This document shows, piece after piece, positions 3,340-11,338 of a stretch of 11,534 nt of DNA (positions are counted from its first letter, which is position 1; every line of letters starts with the position of its first letter). A program made the position numbers and the translations under genes. Source of the stretch: Desulfobacteraceae bacterium (GTDB lineage: Bacteria; Desulfobacterota; Desulfobacteria; Desulfobacterales; UBA11574); assembly GCA_030671225.1 (NCBI GenBank), contig DAOVAE010000012.1, positions 1 through 11,534 of the forward strand. The letters are read 5' to 3'. The notes beneath the pieces are model-generated. The model worked only from the letters and a program-made list of their open reading frames with translations, was not told the origin of the DNA and did not search any database.

Positions 3340-3744
3340 TTATCGAAACGGATCTTCTTTTTCTTTCGTTTCTTCCTTAGCTTTTTCTTCGACCATATCA
3401 ATGTCTTCCACTTCTTCTTTAGCTTCTTTTTCAACATGGAGCATTGCTTCCGTTCCCATTTTCATCTTTTTTGCTCTGCTTTTTTCTACTTTAACAACTG
3501 CTTTAGAAGCCTCAGCACTCACAACCGACCCACAAACAAACTCGTCACCATAAGATGTTGAAGATACAAAAAAGCACACGGTAGCTCCCGGTATAAATCC
3601 ATTATTCACACCTCCATTAATATGAACACGCCCTTTACTTTTATTAATTCCGGTAACCTGTGCTGCCATAGCAATGCCTATAAAAGATGTTGATGCTATC
3701 ACTATGATTCCCATTGCAAAGAGAAATAATTTGATTTTATTCAT
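3340..3744 (-). CDS. Small exported protein with a possible SH3-like beta domain and a Glu/Lys tail
   Basis: Starting at ATG 3744, chosen because GAGGAGG lies five bases upstream, the protein has 134 residues; a start 12 codons earlier has no such site. Residues 1-28 form a signal peptide with basic start, hydrophobic core and AMA cleavage site. Residues 28-95 run as short beta-like stretches with glycine turns (GRVHINGGVNNGFIPGATV, then a GDEFVCGSVV stretch), reminiscent of small SH3-like modules found at the ends of envelope proteins such as FlgT. This likeness is an impression, not a proven homology. The last 30 residues (KEAKEEVEDIDMVEEKAKEE and following) are a highly charged probable coiled coil. 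The product is likely periplasmic with unknown function. The neighbours are DNA-binding proteins on the same strand, 145 bases away, with no clear functional link. Confidence 0.65.
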   Translation of the reverse strand: MNKIKLFLFAMGIIVIASTSFIGIAMAAQVTGINKSKGRVHINGGVNNGFIPGATVCFFVSSTSYGDEFVCGSVVSAEASKAVVKVEKSRAKKMKMGTEAMLHVEKEAKEEVEDIDMVEEKAKEETKEKEDPFR

Positions 3745-3749
3745 TAAGC

Positions 3750-3756
3750 CCTCCTC
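3750..3756 (-). promoter_or_regulatory. Ribosome binding site selecting the start at 3744
   Basis: The minus strand reads GAGGAGG here, five bases before ATG. It decides for the internal start that also gives a clean signal peptide. Confidence 0.75.
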
Positions 3757-3888
3757 TACGTTATGTAAATTCCCGTTCACTTTTTTATTAGGGTTATGAG
3801 ATACCTTGCCGTATTCAAAATTCGAATTTATTACAGATATCGTATAATGACCGTTACCAAGTCAAGTAAATCCTATTTTTAATGCCGG

Positions 3889-4140: not shown

Positions 4141-4551
4141 TTATGTCTTCACATAAACACCTCTCCCTTCACTTTGAATCTTACCCTGCTTCTTCAGAAT
4201 CTTAACATTGTCATATATTTTTCTTCTATTGAAACCGGTTTTTTCCATCAGTGTAGAGACATCCACGCCCTTTCTGTATCTTTTGATAAAACCAAAAACA
4301 GTATCAGCCGCTATTAATTTGACGGGTTTCTTTGCGGCGGGTTTTTTAATAGCGGCCTTTTTTACAGGAGTTTTTTTGGCTGCTACCTTTTTCACGGGTT
4401 TTGCTTTGGCCACGGTTTTCTTTGCTGGTTTTGCCTTGATAGTTTTTGGTTTCTCAAGCTTCCCGACCATAACCATCATCCTATCAACTTTCTTAGCGAG
4501 TGCCTTTAGATCCTTGTTTACGGTTTGAAGATTCTTTTTGAGATTTTTCAT
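4141..4551 (-). CDS. Histone-H1-like Lys/Ala/Pro-rich protein with C-terminal winged helix
   Basis: From ATG 4551 the product has 136 residues. Residues 1-34 are a predicted amphipathic, probably coiled-coil helix. Residues 39-77 are a low-complexity run of KPAKK, VAKAK, PVKK and AAIKK units, like the tail of eukaryotic histone H1 and bacterial H1-like proteins (Hc1, AlgP types). Residues 78-136 look like a winged helix-turn-helix: a helix around DTVFGFIKRY, then VDVSTLMEKTGFNRRKIYDNVKILKKQGKI as the HTH pair, and a short wing ending GRGVYVKT. It probably binds DNA, either as nucleoid protein or regulator. The start is selected by AGGAGG at 4561-4566, nine bases upstream. A longer reading from 4614 would run into the remains of an HU gene and is rejected. 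The position just behind a dead HU gene is notable. Confidence 0.75.
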   Translation of the reverse strand: MKNLKKNLQTVNKDLKALAKKVDRMMVMVGKLEKPKTIKAKPAKKTVAKAKPVKKVAAKKTPVKKAAIKKPAAKKPVKLIAADTVFGFIKRYRKGVDVSTLMEKTGFNRRKIYDNVKILKKQGKIQSEGRGVYVKT

Positions 4552-4560
4552 TTCCGGGTT

Positions 4561-4566
4561 CCTCCT
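4561..4566 (-). promoter_or_regulatory. Ribosome binding site selecting the start at 4551
   Basis: The minus strand reads AGGAGG nine bases before the ATG at 4551. It lies just past the end of the HU relic, so the H1-like gene has its own site. Confidence 0.75.
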
Positions 4567-4580
4567 ATTTTCTATATGTT

Positions 4581-4857
4581 TTAATAATCCACCCTCTCCT
4601 ACAATGTTTACCACATTTGAAAAACGGTAGCTTTTTAGGTTTCATCTTCACCTTTTTACCTGTCTTTGAGTTTTTTTGCCGGTGTATAATTTGTATTTCT
4701 TAGCATAAAATGAGCATAGGCCTCAAATTTCTACCCTGTTACCATTTGCAGGGGCTCCCGACATTTCGTTAAAGAATAAATTCAAAACCGCTTTTGCTAC
4801 GGATTTTGTGAGTCCGTTTTCCCCTCTCAGGATTTCTATAAGTTCCAGTTTGTTCAT
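4581..4857 (-). pseudogene. HU/IHF-family DNA-binding protein, inactivated by two stops and two frameshifts
   Basis: Reading the minus strand from ATG 4857, the first 44 codons give MNKLELIEILRGENGLTK, then SVAKAVLNLFFNEMSGAPAN and GNRVEI, the N-terminal half of an HU-like protein. Codon 45 is TGA (4723-4725), where the family has Arg in the RGLCSF-type motif, which fits a CGA to TGA change. The frame continues GLCSFYAKKYKLYTGK, is shifted at a seven-A run (4671-4677 on the plus strand as T; five expected), and resumes NSKTGKKVKMKPKKLPFFKC followed by GK. Another base is lost near 4605, and a second stop TAG (4599-4601) replaces a Lys codon before ERVDY and TAA at 4581-4583. Corrected for the shifts it would be 91 residues, the normal HU length. 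A weak ribosome site (AGGAAA) remains before the ATG. Confidence 0.9.
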
Positions 4858-6505: not shown

Positions 6506-7687
6506 TCATGCCCAGCGTCCTGGTATAATGGTCTGGCAATATTTACATCGATTTTCGTCCAGGTTGTAGGTAGGAATGGAATATCCGAATCGTTCAATCA
6601 GCAGCTTTTTACAGTTGTGACAATAGGTGTTGTTCCCTTCTGGAAAGGAAACGTTGCCCACATAGACATAACGTATTCCCTCATCCATGGCAAGTTTGCG
6701 GAAACGGATCAGGATTGAGATGGGGGTGGCAGGTAATCGGTCGAGTTTGTATTTGGGGAAAAAGCGTAAAAAGTGCAAAGGATAATCAGGCCCTAAGTTT
6801 TCTAATATCCACTGGCACATCTGTTTTACCATGTCGGCATTATCGACGTATCCGGGAACCACAAGATTTGTCATCTCAAAATGGATTCCCTGCTCATGAA
6901 GCGTTTTGAAAGTATTCAACACAGGCTGTAACCGCCCGCCGTTCAATTTTCGGTAGATGTCGTCGCTGAAAGATTTGATATTGACATTGGCTCCATCCAG
7001 CACACGGCATAATTCCAGCAGAGGTTTTCGATTGATGTAACCGTTTGAAATCCATAAATTAGATATCCCGTTGTCTCTGGCAATGCGGGCGGTGTCGATC
7101 ATGTATTCAAAAAAAGTGACGGCTTCGGAATAGGTGTAAGCGATGGACTCGCATTCGGCGCGCTGTGCCGTTTTAATCACATCGGCCGGGAATAGTTCGT
7201 AATGGCGGACCTCATGGGGTTTTGACTGGGAAATTTCCCAGTTCTGGCAATTCAAGCAGCGAAAGTTGCAACCGGTGGTTGCGATGGAAAAAGCTTTTGA
7301 CTGCGGCTTGAAATGGAACAGAGGTTTCTTTTCAATGGGATCGACATTCACGCTACAGGGATTACCGTATGTTAAACTGTAAAGTGTGCCGTTCATATTG
7401 ACCTTGGAACGGCAGACACTGCGATCACCGGGTGATAACATACATCTGTTGGGGCAGATGCCGCACATCACCGTTTTGTTTCCCAGCTTTGTATAAAGAA
7501 ATCCTTCGTGGGACCATTTCCAGAGTTTTTTGGGCGCATCTTTTTTAAAAACCAGGCCGCGAATATCGACCGGACCCGTTGCTGCACTTATTTTTTCTGA
7601 AAAAGGCCGGAAAGCATAAGCAGGAACGGTGTAACAAAGTAGTCCCGCGCTGCAATAAAGAAAATGACGGCGGCTAATTTTTTTCAT
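6506..7687 (-). CDS. amrS: AmmeMemoRadiSam-system radical SAM enzyme with a twin-arginine signal
   Basis: The 393-residue protein opens with MKKISRRHFLYC: SRRHFL fits the twin-arginine S-R-R-x-F-L consensus, followed by a hydrophobic stretch and AYA near residue 25 as possible cleavage site. C75, C78, C82 and C92 (CGICPNRC ... C) form an N-terminal metal or Fe-S site. C140, C144 and C147 (TTGCNFRCLNCQNWE) are the CxxxCxxC radical SAM cluster. Residues 183-340 supply the rest of the partial barrel, including LWISNGYI and NVNIKSFSDDIYRKL. C356/C359 and C381/C384 near the end suggest a C-terminal zinc ribbon closing with IPGRW. The family is paired with Memo and AMMECR1 genes. The substrate is unknown. 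Its start overlaps the upstream gene by 14 bases without a strong ribosome site, indicating translational coupling. Confidence 0.88.
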   Translation of the reverse strand: MKKISRRHFLYCSAGLLCYTVPAYAFRPFSEKISAATGPVDIRGLVFKKDAPKKLWKWSHEGFLYTKLGNKTVMCGICPNRCMLSPGDRSVCRSKVNMNGTLYSLTYGNPCSVNVDPIEKKPLFHFKPQSKAFSIATTGCNFRCLNCQNWEISQSKPHEVRHYELFPADVIKTAQRAECESIAYTYSEAVTFFEYMIDTARIARDNGISNLWISNGYINRKPLLELCRVLDGANVNIKSFSDDIYRKLNGGRLQPVLNTFKTLHEQGIHFEMTNLVVPGYVDNADMVKQMCQWILENLGPDYPLHFLRFFPKYKLDRLPATPISILIRFRKLAMDEGIRYVYVGNVSFPEGNNTYCHNCKKLLIERFGYSIPTYNLDENRCKYCQTIIPGRWA

Positions 7688-9779
7688 GACGCGTAACTAC
7701 AACAATTAAACTACAAAATTTAAAACCGATCAATCCTGCTGCAGCCCAGATGATCCCGCAATATGGGATCAATACAACGCTGGTGACCAGGGTGCCGCAG
7801 GCGGCCCCGATCAAATCGGCTGAAAAGGTTCGGGTCACCGCCGGAGCATCTCCCCCCCGCAAATAGAGGGCGACCGGAAATTGAAAACCGCAGATCAGTG
7901 AAACCACAAAACCGAAAACAAGAAAAAAAGCCACCGGCAGCAGACTTCCATGTTGCATAGCCAAGATCAACAGGCCCATCATGGCAATCATCAACCCATC
8001 GGCAAGTGCAAGGGTTTGCTTGCTCCTGCGGTGCAATCTCTCACCGAACCAGGCTCCGGGTAAAAGGCCGGCCAGAAAAACGGTAACGATCAGACCGATC
8101 TGCGTATAGATATAACCGAAAAAAATTTGAAATGCAAATATTACCAGAATTTCACTACCCATTACCGTAAAACCGGTGGAAAATAGAACAAATTCTTCAG
8201 CGGTAATACGAACCAGGTAAATAAGGAAAAGTACGGTAAAAACCGCAATGAAACCGGTGGGAGAAGAGGCAAACTTGGCAAACCACTGAATAAACATAAG
8301 ACGCATCAACTGGGGAGAATCATCACGGTTTTTTGGGGTTTCAGGATCAATAAGCCTATTAAGGCGAGCGATTCTTTCCTGGGTCAGGTTGCCGTAATAG
8401 TAGCCTTTTATGTAGCGGGTATGGATTCCTTTTTTGACAAGGAGTGCCGGTATATCGGTGCTAAGGGGTTGAGAGCTGCATAGAAAAAAGGTCTTTTGTC
8501 CCGGCAGCAAAAGAACATGGTCAAAATAGTCTGTTACGGTATTGTAAAGGGAAGAAAGCTTCTGGCGTTGCGGTTCTGCAAGGTAGTTGTCAAATCCTTT
8601 CATGGCAAAACTAAGCACCCCGTTTCCGGCCAGATGACGCCTGGCCATTGAAAAGAATCTATCGGTAAAAAATCGATTGATTTGAAAGGTATCAGGTTCG
8701 CCAAGGTTGATGATGATGGCGTCATATATTTTGTGCGAGCCGGCAAGATAGGATCGGCCGTCTTGATGAATGACTTTTAGTCCGGGAATCCTTTTTATCA
8801 GTCCGAACCTGAATTGAATGTCCGCAACCTTTGGATCGAGTTCCACATAATCGATAGAATCCGGTCGGTACTTTTCCAGTTCAGCCATCATGCCGCCTTG
8901 GGCTGAAATCAATAGAATGTTTTGAACTTTAGAAATCTGGGATAGCGGATAATGTATGGTTTCTTCAGCCATGCTAATATTCTGACTGCCGAACAGAGGG
9001 AGTCCTCCAACGAACAGGGTAAACTGTTCCTGGTTTTGATGGACTTCGATTCTGCCGTAGCGTGATTCGCTGTAATAAACAAGTTTACCTTCTGATGGCT
9101 TAAGAGATGATGGTTCCATAATAATGGAGAACACGAGGATTGCGAAAGTCAGTCCGGTCCCTAAAAAAACAAGAGGGCGATGTCGGGAAGAGGAGGGAAA
9201 GAGGAGATAGGTCGCAAGAAGTAATGGTAAATTGGCAAAAAATGTGGCTTTTAAGGGGGTAACCAGAAAGACAAGTACAAAGGAAAACAGAGCACCGCCG
9301 GAAACATCCCCCAGATTGTCAATGATATAGATAAGAGTTCCGGAATAATCCGGATTTTCGATCCTGATTACAAAAAGGCTATAGGGGAGAACAAAGCCGA
9401 GTAAAAGGCAATAAGGCGCAATTGTGAAAAAGGTATAGGCAAAGGTGGAATAAAACCCGACCGAGCTGCCGTGAATAAAAAAAAGATCGCGAAGCTGCCT
9501 GATGGCCAGAATTTGCACGGCGGGCAGGCTTGCCAGAATCAAAGAAAGCCACCCCAGTCTATTGATGGTGGCATGCCAAAAGCGTTTGGTTACCCAGTGC
9601 GCAAGGAGTGTGCCTGCGCCGCCAATGATCAGCCAGTTGAAGAGAATAAGGGCAATGACGAACTCGTTAGACTGAAATTGGGCTAAAAATTCACGAATGA
9701 TCAACAGTTGAGTCACCACAGAGGAAATGCCCGTGGCGATGACCACTCGAATTATGGCACGTTCATTTTTCCTCTTCAA
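7674..9779 (-). CDS. Polytopic membrane protein with embedded spermidine-synthase-like domain
   Basis: Reading from TTG 9779 gives 701 residues. About seven hydrophobic helices (roughly residues 10-220) are followed by a soluble Rossmann-type domain (about 230-435) and about six to seven more helices (508-698). The domain follows the spermidine-synthase plan: ISAQGGMM (291-298) replaces the GGGDGG nucleotide loop, VELDPKV (312-318) is the acidic SAM-ribose motif, then HQDGRSYLAG, and INLGEPDT (357-364) where true synthases have an Asp-rich D-S/T-x-D-P. The acidic catalytic pair is therefore changed, so aminopropyl transfer is doubtful. The final helices carry FSADLIGAACGTLVTSVVL, typical of this membrane family. 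The frame stays open to 10055 but that part duplicates the AMMECR1 coding region. Start alternatives are GTG 9746 and TTG 9779 (AGG nine bases upstream). The gene overlaps both neighbours. Confidence 0.78.
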   Translation of the reverse strand: MKRKNERAIIRVVIATGISSVVTQLLIIREFLAQFQSNEFVIALILFNWLIIGGAGTLLAHWVTKRFWHATINRLGWLSLILASLPAVQILAIRQLRDLFFIHGSSVGFYSTFAYTFFTIAPYCLLLGFVLPYSLFVIRIENPDYSGTLIYIIDNLGDVSGGALFSFVLVFLVTPLKATFFANLPLLLATYLLFPSSSRHRPLVFLGTGLTFAILVFSIIMEPSSLKPSEGKLVYYSESRYGRIEVHQNQEQFTLFVGGLPLFGSQNISMAEETIHYPLSQISKVQNILLISAQGGMMAELEKYRPDSIDYVELDPKVADIQFRFGLIKRIPGLKVIHQDGRSYLAGSHKIYDAIIINLGEPDTFQINRFFTDRFFSMARRHLAGNGVLSFAMKGFDNYLAEPQRQKLSSLYNTVTDYFDHVLLLPGQKTFFLCSSQPLSTDIPALLVKKGIHTRYIKGYYYGNLTQERIARLNRLIDPETPKNRDDSPQLMRLMFIQWFAKFASSPTGFIAVFTVLFLIYLVRITAEEFVLFSTGFTVMGSEILVIFAFQIFFGYIYTQIGLIVTVFLAGLLPGAWFGERLHRRSKQTLALADGLMIAMMGLLILAMQHGSLLPVAFFLVFGFVVSLICGFQFPVALYLRGGDAPAVTRTFSADLIGAACGTLVTSVVLIPYCGIIWAAAGLIGFKFCSLIVVVTRHEKN

Positions 9780-11247
9780 AATATTGAACCTGATAGGTCG
9801 ATATTTCCAGTTGAGTTTTTTCCCAGGTGTCGGCCGATAGGCCGGCCTTTCTGCAAAGATGGGACAGAAAGTGCTCGGGCTCGGGTAGCTGTTCCCAAAC
9901 CTGTGGTAAAAAAGTGGCGCTGGCCGTTCCTTTGCGTAGAATAACGCCATCCACATGGGGGCGTAGTTTGGTAAGCAGATCCTTACTACCACGATATTCA
10001 AGGGGCTGAGGTTCGGTAAGGATGCTGATTTCGATTCCCACCTGGTCGAGTTCATCGGCTTTCAAGGGGGCAAATCTGGGATCATGGAAAGCGGCATTAA
10101 CGGCGTTGCGCTTTATTCCGGCCATGATCGATTCGGTAGATTCCAAATTACCGATACAACCGCGCAGTTGTTTATTAATGGTAAGAGTTACAAAGGTCCC
10201 CCGGTGCTCCTGAAAGCAGTTGTCGGTCATGGGATCAGACTCGGTCTTGGCTGATTTTAGGCCGAGTTTTTCCATAATGGCCTTCCGGGCCAACCTTCCC
10301 AGTGCCTGCCCCTGATGTTTGCTTAAATGCCTCGTGGTATTATTATTCTTCTGCATAGATGAACCTCCATAAAAGGCGATGGCCGCATAGCCGACAACCC
10401 TCGAACGATCCCCTGCTGTGTCACCGCTGTTCGAATAGTGGAGAATAACCGGTTGCCAGCCATGTCGGCGGGCCAAATTTATCAAAACCAGAATTGGTGT
10501 TTTACCACAGGCCGCATTATCCTGCTTTAACAGTTTGCCGGCATTAAGATTTAATATCATTTGGATTGTCTTCCGGTCCCTATCAACAGCTTCCGAATAT
10601 GGAAGATAGTGGGATAAATCCGAACTGGCAACCAGCAAAGTCTTTTTGTCAAACAAAGGATCGAGAGCTGCCGAATAGCTATCGATATTACCAGGACCAA
10701 TTACAATCGGGATGAGTTCGAATTTTTTTAGAAAGTACTGCAGAAAAGGGAGAACCACCTCCACAGAATGCTCAAGCCGATCGGAAGCCGGGATTGTTTG
10801 AAAAAGGTATTTATTTCGACGCAGCCTGACCGCATCTTCATTCAGCGGAATCAGGCCTAGAGGAGTTTCATAGGCGGTTGCGTCGCTAATGGCACCACCT
10901 TTGAATCCCACGCGATGATCCGGTGCCAGCACAATGACCCTGTTGAATTGATTTTCCTTTAATACCAGAGAGATATGCGCTGCAGTCAACCCTGAATAGA
11001 TATAACCGGCATGGGGCATTATAAGAGCTTTTATTGAAGTATGGGGCAGGTTTTGAACATTAGTCTGTTTAGCCCGGTCGGTGAGTTCCTCAATAAAAGT
11101 CGTCAATTCAGACCGTGTGCCAGGATAAAAACTGCCGGCATATACCGGTTTGCGGATATCACCGGCATTGACTGCGCCAACCTGGGGGAGGACTGCCAGG
11201 CAGAGAGCAAGAAGAATCTTAAAAATTAGACTGAAAGTTCGCTTCAT
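9763..11247 (-). CDS. amrB-amrA: Secreted Memo-AMMECR1 fusion (AmmeMemoRadiSam proteins B and A)
   Basis: The 494-residue protein starts with a clear Sec signal (basic MKR, hydrophobic core, VNA near residue 28). Residues 32-294 are a Memo domain: PHAGYIYSG (78-86), APDHRVGF (109-116), SSDLSHY (208-214) and DNAACGKTP (243-251). The likely metal ligands H79, H111 and C247 correspond to those reported for human MEMO1. Residues 312-492 are a full AMMECR1 domain with the hallmark LRGCIGNLE (361-369) and HDPRFAPL (388-395). The two are separate proteins in many organisms. The gene is first in its operon behind a good promoter, and its stop overlaps the start of the membrane gene. ATG 11247 has only a poor ribosome site. 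The role is unknown; the context implies work with the radical SAM enzyme, here outside the cytoplasm. Confidence 0.9.
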   Translation of the reverse strand: MKRTFSLIFKILLALCLAVLPQVGAVNAGDIRKPVYAGSFYPGTRSELTTFIEELTDRAKQTNVQNLPHTSIKALIMPHAGYIYSGLTAAHISLVLKENQFNRVIVLAPDHRVGFKGGAISDATAYETPLGLIPLNEDAVRLRRNKYLFQTIPASDRLEHSVEVVLPFLQYFLKKFELIPIVIGPGNIDSYSAALDPLFDKKTLLVASSDLSHYLPYSEAVDRDRKTIQMILNLNAGKLLKQDNAACGKTPILVLINLARRHGWQPVILHYSNSGDTAGDRSRVVGYAAIAFYGGSSMQKNNNTTRHLSKHQGQALGRLARKAIMEKLGLKSAKTESDPMTDNCFQEHRGTFVTLTINKQLRGCIGNLESTESIMAGIKRNAVNAAFHDPRFAPLKADELDQVGIEISILTEPQPLEYRGSKDLLTKLRPHVDGVILRKGTASATFLPQVWEQLPEPEHFLSHLCRKAGLSADTWEKTQLEISTYQVQYFEEEK

Positions 11248-11309
11248 GGAAGGATCCGTTATCGTACAAAGTCGTTTTCTTGACTTTTTGCGTGACCATC
11301 ATCATTAGT

Positions 11310-11338
11310 AAAATACAATGGGGACTAATTGCTGTCAA
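11310..11338 (-). promoter_or_regulatory. Sigma70-type promoter of the AmmeMemoRadiSam operon
   Basis: On the minus strand a perfect TTGACA (11333-11338) is followed 17 bases later by TATTTT (11310-11315). Transcription would start near 11303, leaving a leader of about 55 bases before ATG 11247. The promoter lies in the short gap behind the upstream deacetylase-like gene. Confidence 0.7.

Follow-up and report, generated by a model that had tools for sequence, protein, structure and literature searches.

The stretch of DNA analysed here, referred to as the window, comprises 11,534 nucleotides of a Desulfobacteraceae bacterium (assembly GCA_030671225.1, contig DAOVAE010000012.1) and carries on its minus strand what appears to be an extracytoplasmic AmmeMemoRadiSam system together with a membrane partner. 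Its three consecutive, overlapping genes (Table 1) encode a Memo-AMMECR1 fusion (gene 1), a membrane protein with an S-adenosylmethionine (SAM)-type fold (gene 2) and a radical SAM enzyme (gene 3). The location of the system outside the cytoplasm is predicted with high confidence from leaders and membrane topology. Furthermore, we tentatively favour the explanation, giving it slightly less than an even chance, that the membrane partner of this extracytoplasmic system handles, and probably supplies, SAM on the outer face of the inner membrane.

All three AmmeMemoRadiSam components score over the cut-offs of their models, gene 3 with 348.1 bits against TIGR04337 (cut-off 220) and gene 1 with 242.5 bits against TIGR04336 (Memo-family protein B, cut-off 26) and 205.4 bits against TIGR04335 (AMMECR1-family protein A, cut-off 99). 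A first-pass annotation of the window had described the three overlapping minus-strand genes as encoding a Memo-AMMECR1 protein with a signal for the general secretion (Sec) pathway, a polytopic SAM-fold protein and a radical SAM enzyme with a signal for the twin-arginine translocation (Tat) pathway. The coordinates, models and leaders agree with this description.

Predicted export signals of the system

The Tat-type leader of gene 3 consists of SRRHFL followed by a hydrophobic segment, both in the window and in near copies. Leaders were assessed throughout via hydropathy, motif and comparison, with cleavage sites placed by eye. Matches to TIGR04337 over the cut-off were detected in 274 of 297 genomes of the phylum and in 104 of 116 genomes of the order, and a homolog of gene 2 (E <= 1e-20) in 105 of the 297 phylum genomes. 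Many genomes harbour two or more radical SAM matches, which in the neighbourhoods covered belong mainly to two types. The short type is leaderless, mostly with about 15 residues ahead of the first CxxCxxxC, has no linked gene 2 and is linked to Memo or AMMECR1 genes in a few exceptions. The long type possesses a twin-arginine leader and mostly adjoins homologs of gene 2 as well as Memo and AMMECR1 genes.

The association between leader and gene 2 was counted in the loci L062-L221, in which 149 radical SAM rows were reduced to 141 distinct ones by deduplicating overlapping collections; one L144 row lacking the anchor motif was excluded, and one L112 row with RR, in which the anchor lies inside the leader, was counted as non-Tat. 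The radical SAM genes adjoining gene 2 were of the Tat type in 100 of 106 cases, compared with 6 of 35 among those not adjoining it (29 non-Tat). The six non-Tat rows beside gene 2 comprise L140, a soluble copy located approximately 1.8 kb from gene 2, L161, with a run of N in the leader, and L204, L205, L208 and L209, in which RR is followed by a residue outside the set accepted by the leader rule. When the loci were chosen by the radical SAM gene alone, gene 2 was adjacent for 15 of 18 Tat-type copies versus none of 23 non-Tat copies (Fisher p 1.3e-8, uncorrected for kinship). Among the 23 radical SAM copies of 20 genomes lacking a gene 2 match, one was of the Tat type and one was unreadable, this lone Tat-type copy (L332) belonging to a genome (G014) which has the second membrane branch described below.

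Memo genes were regarded as linked if their locus also contains a gene 2 or radical SAM match, 21 Memo hits without the anchor motif being excluded. A signal was identified in 69 of the 72 linked distinct Memo genes read. Of the remaining three, L161 has no readable start, and L033 and L224 are operons in which the Memo, AMMECR1 and radical SAM genes are all leaderless, with no gene 2 within the 4 kb covered. The genome with L224 (G403) is also that of L202 and thus has the exported operon, too. Among 20 unlinked Memo genes only two bear a signal, a contrast that is partly one of choice since these genes were chosen as non-operon copies, mostly short frames, six of them read by eye. Both signal-bearing copies stem from genomes, G031 and G127, in which Memo is missing from the exported operon stretch. 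Nine of the ten genomes with such Memo-less exported operon stretches have a signal-bearing Memo elsewhere, and the tenth, G002 (84% complete), has no Memo match anywhere. Four unlinked Memo-AMMECR1 fusions (L308-L311, from G396, G344, G110 and G036) all possess a hydrophobic leader, and their genomes contain a Tat-type radical SAM gene. In one lineage, L085-L094 and relatives, the operon stretch has AMMECR1 and no Memo, the signal-bearing Memo lying elsewhere in the nine of ten genomes mentioned above, and the leader of the radical SAM enzyme mostly shows RK instead of RR.

Stand-alone AMMECR1 proteins bear a signal in 29 of 38 rows from gene 2 loci versus 3 of 20 rows from other loci, counts that include some cut or repeated rows. 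Of these three, two come from G206 and G268, where a Tat-type radical SAM gene occurs without gene 2 nearby. In several relatives (e.g. G314, G370, G069 and G224) the operon fusion is the sole AMMECR1 match.

In a tree of the radical SAM enzymes (219 sequences thinned to 93; seven unclear leaders, four of them among the 93, set as soluble) six changes between the exported and the soluble label are needed, four of which are forced by starred branches. Inspection by eye revealed that L240 and one L112 row are mislabelled as exported and the other L112 row as soluble, and that L023 is cut at a contig end.

The proposal of the first-pass annotation that the complete system resides at the membrane or in the periplasm is computationally well supported by these patterns, which are conserved in related and distant genomes, and the comparison across Desulfobacterota loci that it had suggested turned out in its favour, the Tat leader tracking gene 2 and the Memo genes bearing signals. 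Loci devoid of both the signals and the membrane gene, named there as the contrary pattern, were seen only in paralogs, namely the common leaderless radical SAM type and the operons L033 and L224 (no membrane gene within the 4 kb covered); leaderless paralogs are present in many of the same genomes.

It seems very improbable that the leaders are mere membrane anchors or misread, with the catalytic parts facing the cytoplasm and its SAM and electrons. Radical SAM enzymes are generally known as cytoplasmic, SAM is made in the cytoplasm, and in 31 of 114 Tat-type calls the first motif is not RR but RK or KR, all of which would suit such an arrangement. However, three different proteins carry outward signals together, even when unlinked, and an N-terminal RR-type anchor would itself place the downstream part outside. 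Moreover, the topology of gene 2 puts its SAM-fold domain outside in 71 of 71 rows (see below), and 18 of the 20 unlinked non-operon Memo copies, a set determined partly by choice, are leaderless.

The exported proteins retain the residues expected of active sites, as counted in aligned rows that were not deduplicated. Among 122 exported radical SAM rows, C75, C78 and C82 as well as the CxxxCxxC motif are present in 121, with a gap in the remaining row, and C92 likewise in 121, with P in one. C111 and C291 of gene 3 are both found in 106 of the 122 exported rows (two rows gapped) and in 0 of 25 rows of the soluble group A; their losses across the exported rows are not strictly paired, and they may form a disulfide or serve as cluster ligand in the exported type. 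Human MEMO1 binds iron or copper via H49, H81 and C244, as stated in excerpts of PMC11081632. At the equivalent positions of the Memo rows histidine occurs in 70 of 70 and 71 of 71 lettered rows and cysteine in 77 of 77. The LRGCIG motif is kept across 111 aligned AMMECR1 rows, save V for I in one. Since the cluster motifs, the Memo ligands and LRGCIG are retained, the exported copies are likely to be working enzymes.

Predicted topology and possible function of gene 2

Gene 2 matches Pfam Spermine_synth with 37.7 bits (cut-off 22.9). Its AlphaFold2 model, based on 71 aligned homologs (mean predicted local distance difference test 89.8, predicted template modelling score 0.88), consists of two sets of seven long helices, the first running from 4-34 to 202-225, with a mixed domain (226-506) between them. 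The pattern of Lys and Arg fits an orientation with both termini inside and the domain outside in 71 of 71 homolog rows, also for each half separately, with the helix limits set by hand for this count. With the helix ends of the AlphaFold2 model Lys and Arg amount to 18.6 in the eight inside loops versus 4.1 in the six outside loops. The SAM-fold domain is predicted to face the outside. Residues 1-200 and 524-701 constitute an internal repeat (hhalign 96.2%), namely a direct six-helix repeat that looks transporter-like in its resemblance to many transporters.

According to profile searches the domain matches 27 distinct solved sequences, nearly all of them named aminopropyltransferases, the best match being the spermidine synthase 1UIR (E 3.2e-27, 1UIR residues 15-300 of 314). 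Gene 2 retains E313, D315 and D340, which we take, from the structures of spermidine synthases, to be the ribose- and adenine-side acids. The DxxDP loop, the aspartates of which are presumably catalytic in spermidine synthase, reads DLTDP in 1UIR, DLPEP (in some members DLPDP) in the family consensus and NLGEP in the window. The window protein remains below the cut-offs of the aminopropyltransferase equivalog models (81 versus 472 bits for PRK03612, 57 versus 260 and 39 versus 250 bits) and below that of NF037959 (32.1 versus 40 bits), and 71 of 71 aligned homologs match the PRK03612 and NF037959 models at E <= 0.001.

Gene 2 might be a membrane-bound transferase, transferring an aminopropyl, methyl or other group from SAM or decarboxylated SAM onto an envelope substrate shared by the trio. 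The nearly end-to-end alignment with spermidine synthases and the DLPEP or DLPDP consensus in place of DLTDP would agree with such a function. Considering, however, the NLGEP loop of the window, the score far under the PRK03612 cut-off and the fact that a transferase, too, would require SAM outside, we regard this as a rather unlikely alternative; the presence of a homolog next to a repair methyltransferase, an enzyme that performs its transfer itself, as described in the following, would be harder to explain as well.

In five loci (L103, L106, L151, L199 and L200) a signal-bearing protein-isoaspartate methyltransferase (PCMT) near the trio adjoins another large membrane protein. This second branch is homologous to gene 2 over the full length (hhalign 99.8%, 670 columns), shows a similar hydropathy and charge pattern and likewise resembles spermidine synthases. 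In at least 34 of 67 genomes, the window's own included, it adjoins a PCMT gene, the distance being within 200 bp in 33 of them. At PCMT loci with the second branch signals were detected in 35 of 36 cases, or in 33 of 34 once the duplicate G000 and G126 are removed. The top 30 PCMT matches are signal-bearing without exception (30 of 30), and one of the two membrane branches is present in 27 of these 30 genomes versus 144 of 297 overall. Twenty unpaired methyltransferases, picked by short open frame and hence partly by choice, are all without signals (20 of 20).

PCMT requires SAM; if it is exported, SAM is therefore needed outside there as well. The presence of the second branch beside PCMT suggests SAM handling instead of a particular envelope product, and we favour SAM handling by gene 2 because SAM is what the two branches most simply have in common. 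A supply of SAM by gene 2 in particular is conceivable but falls short of being probable. Still more tentative is the generalisation that the 14-helix inner-membrane family delivers SAM to the outside, with each branch dedicated to a different exported SAM enzyme.

The occurrence of one membrane family beside two different exported SAM-consuming enzymes, as well as the nucleoside-type domain and the transporter-like repeat of gene 2, would also be compatible with a function not in the supply of SAM but in clearing S-adenosylhomocysteine, 5'-deoxyadenosine and methylthioadenosine from the outer face or recycling them. Such a role leaves the entry of SAM unexplained and seems improbable.

On the assumption of SAM supply, the radical SAM enzyme would fold with its iron-sulfur cluster in the cytoplasm prior to export by the Tat pathway, and the Memo-AMMECR1 fusion would be exported by Sec. 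Gene 2 would span the inner membrane and present its SAM-type nucleoside binding domain at the outer face. Most likely it would transport SAM through the membrane and pass it on to the exported radical SAM enzyme, which would generate a radical on a substrate in whose processing the iron site of Memo takes part. That export really occurs, that SAM is transported, that the enzymes are catalytically active and that they share a substrate is what we infer from the patterns described above.

Several observations weigh against extracytoplasmic SAM supply or against parts of it. We are aware neither of a demonstration of SAM in these periplasms nor of a donor of electrons to the cluster. For six Tat-type radical SAM genes there is no gene 2 in the vicinity; L063 and L074 lie at contig breaks and the genomes with L139, L122 and L125 have gene 2 elsewhere, which leaves L107 unaccounted for. 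The exported half of the radical SAM tree includes leaderless sequences, namely L011 and L239, apparently truly leaderless by eye, and eight canonical rows. The leaders were scored with a home-made rule, and the loci are phylogenetically related, so that the counts are not independent. Regarding the second branch, three of the 30 top-PCMT genomes show neither of the two branches, no second-branch protein was found within approximately 1.5 kb at 19 of the 30 top-PCMT loci, there is no consensus at the position of D340 of gene 2, and the second branch alone gave no sign of the internal repeat (1.2%).

If the reading as a SAM-delivering family is correct, many bacteria would carry out radical SAM chemistry and protein repair in their periplasm. 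For a radical SAM enzyme a location outside the cytoplasm would be unexpected, SAM and low-potential electrons being held to be inside. The fact that two unrelated exported SAM enzymes are accompanied by the same membrane family makes periplasmic SAM transport a concrete, testable proposition. That all parts appear to have moved together to another compartment suggests that they act as one functional unit, and the exported location would mean that the substrate has to be accessible from outside the inner membrane.

The window's own genome also contains a signal-bearing isoaspartyl methyltransferase gene adjoining a gene for a second-branch membrane protein (L365, G000:C54:1770-4879).

Locus structure, distribution and neighbouring genes

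Table 1. Predicted features of the AmmeMemoRadiSam locus in the window
Feature	Position	Strand	Basis
AmmeMemoRadiSam radical SAM enzyme with Tat-type leader, 393 amino acids (gene 3)	6506..7687	-	TIGR04337
Twin-arginine leader of gene 3, SRRHFL, residues 1-25	7613..7687	-	sequence; cleavage by eye
Radical SAM motif C140-x3-C144-x2-C147 of gene 3	7247..7270	-	alignment
14-helix membrane protein with spermidine-synthase-like domain, 701 amino acids, TTG start (gene 2)	7674..9779	-	Pfam, profiles, AlphaFold2
Spermidine-synthase-like domain of gene 2, residues 226-506, predicted periplasmic side	8262..9104	-	AlphaFold2, profile match, charge pattern
Memo-AMMECR1 fusion (AmmeMemoRadiSam proteins B and A), 494 amino acids (gene 1)	9763..11247	-	Pfam Memo and AMMECR1, TIGR models
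AMMECR1 domain of gene 1 with LRGCIG motif	9778..10296	-	Pfam AMMECR1
Memo domain of gene 1, metal ligands H79, H111, C247 (human H49, H81, C244)	10378..11148	-	sequence alignment
Sec-type signal peptide of gene 1, residues 1-28	11164..11247	-	hydrophobic 11-mer score 2.93; cleavage by eye
Promoter-like site TTGACA-17-TATTTT, 5' of gene 1	11310..11338	-	10/12 match, top score in region

Genes 1 and 2 overlap by 17 bp, given the TTG start of gene 2 at 9779, and genes 2 and 3 by 14 bp. The list of open reading frames places the start of gene 2 at 10055. We adopted the TTG at 9779 because the matches of relatives reach residue 1 of the resulting protein and a possible TTG or GTG start is located at the same place in L151 and L152.

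The first-pass annotation had assigned the three genes to a single promoter. The best-scoring site in the region is indeed located upstream of gene 1, and a promoter for the trio at 11338-11310 is plausible; as a class, promoter-like sites are not enriched, with seven found versus 7.6 expected from shuffles.

The source genome of the window is 68.7% complete. Among the best 80 of 501 confirmed stretches, which were kept from the gene 2 scan, the closest named relatives by gene 2 are bins of Desulfobacterales, Desulfobacteraceae or Deltaproteobacteria. The scan also reached Pirellulales, Verrucomicrobia, a Methylacidiphilum bin, Bacteroidota, magnetotactic bins and DPANN archaeal bins. Most of the distant loci with a readable radical SAM start show a similar leader, the bins being possibly contaminated.

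Clustering of the neighbouring genes in 53 and then in 136 loci revealed no other gene that widely recurs beside the trio, the next largest clusters, not annotated family by family, comprising 11 and 10 of the 136 loci. The envelope modification pathway proposed in the first-pass annotation goes beyond the data; no widely recurrent neighbour in these 136 loci names a substrate. In L103 (8002-8928), L106, L151 and L152 a gene with a hydrophobic leader is located 3' of the radical SAM gene on the opposite strand; in L103, the only one scanned, it is Peptidase MA-like.

Elsewhere in the window, positions 44-2143 on the plus strand encode an RnfB-like iron-sulfur N-terminus fused to an NAD(P) oxidoreductase of the glutamate synthase small subunit type. 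Two genes for small proteins are located on the minus strand. The one at 3340-3780 has a hydrophobic segment at the N-terminus and matches ExtJ of selenite/tellurite reduction operons below the threshold, and the one at 4141-4614 has a Lys/Ala/Pro-rich, weakly histone-H1-like middle part and a sub-threshold helix-turn-helix end.

Comparison with known systems

To our knowledge, there is no agreed reaction for Memo and AMMECR1, which are conserved up to humans, nor a known common reaction or substrate for the AmmeMemoRadiSam system. The study of the dioxygenase-Memo superfamily by Burroughs et al. 2019 (JBC) reportedly covers wider Memo contexts with links to nucleotide-base and isoprenoid modification. 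In the literature searched by title and start of the abstract we found no description of an exported AmmeMemoRadiSam system or of periplasmic SAM transport; Burroughs et al. 2019 may mention the membrane gene. An excerpt of PMC7159879, which cites Burroughs et al. 2019 (JBC, doi 10.1074/jbc.RA119.007595), dates the description of Memo-AMMECR1 systems with a radical SAM enzyme to 2019, and in excerpts of some of the papers naming it AmmeMemoRadiSam is used only as a gene label. The enzyme trio itself is already known.

The Memo part of gene 1 belongs by sequence to the same family as human MEMO1 (3BCZ, E 2.5e-15), with the iron/copper ligands common to both. In contrast to the eukaryotic protein, which is cytosolic and the reaction of which is not agreed according to excerpts of PMC11081632, the Memo of the window is predicted to be exported and is fused to AMMECR1. 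The closest solved structure to gene 3 by sequence is that of the pyruvate formate-lyase activating enzyme (3C8F, E 2.4e-8). This match is restricted to residues 137-293, however, and gene 3 additionally contains N- and C-terminal cysteine clusters and the Tat leader. The best NCBIfam match of gene 2 is PRK03612 (NF002956, membrane polyamine aminopropyltransferase), but the protein differs from this family and from NF037959 (fused MFS/spermidine synthase) in its scores below the cut-offs and its altered, presumably catalytic loop. Taken as a whole, the locus resembles the AmmeMemoRadiSam system defined by TIGR04335, TIGR04336 and TIGR04337 in containing all three components over the cut-offs, clustered and with their active-site residues kept, whereas it differs from that system by the Sec and Tat leaders on all parts and by the 14-helix SAM-fold membrane partner.

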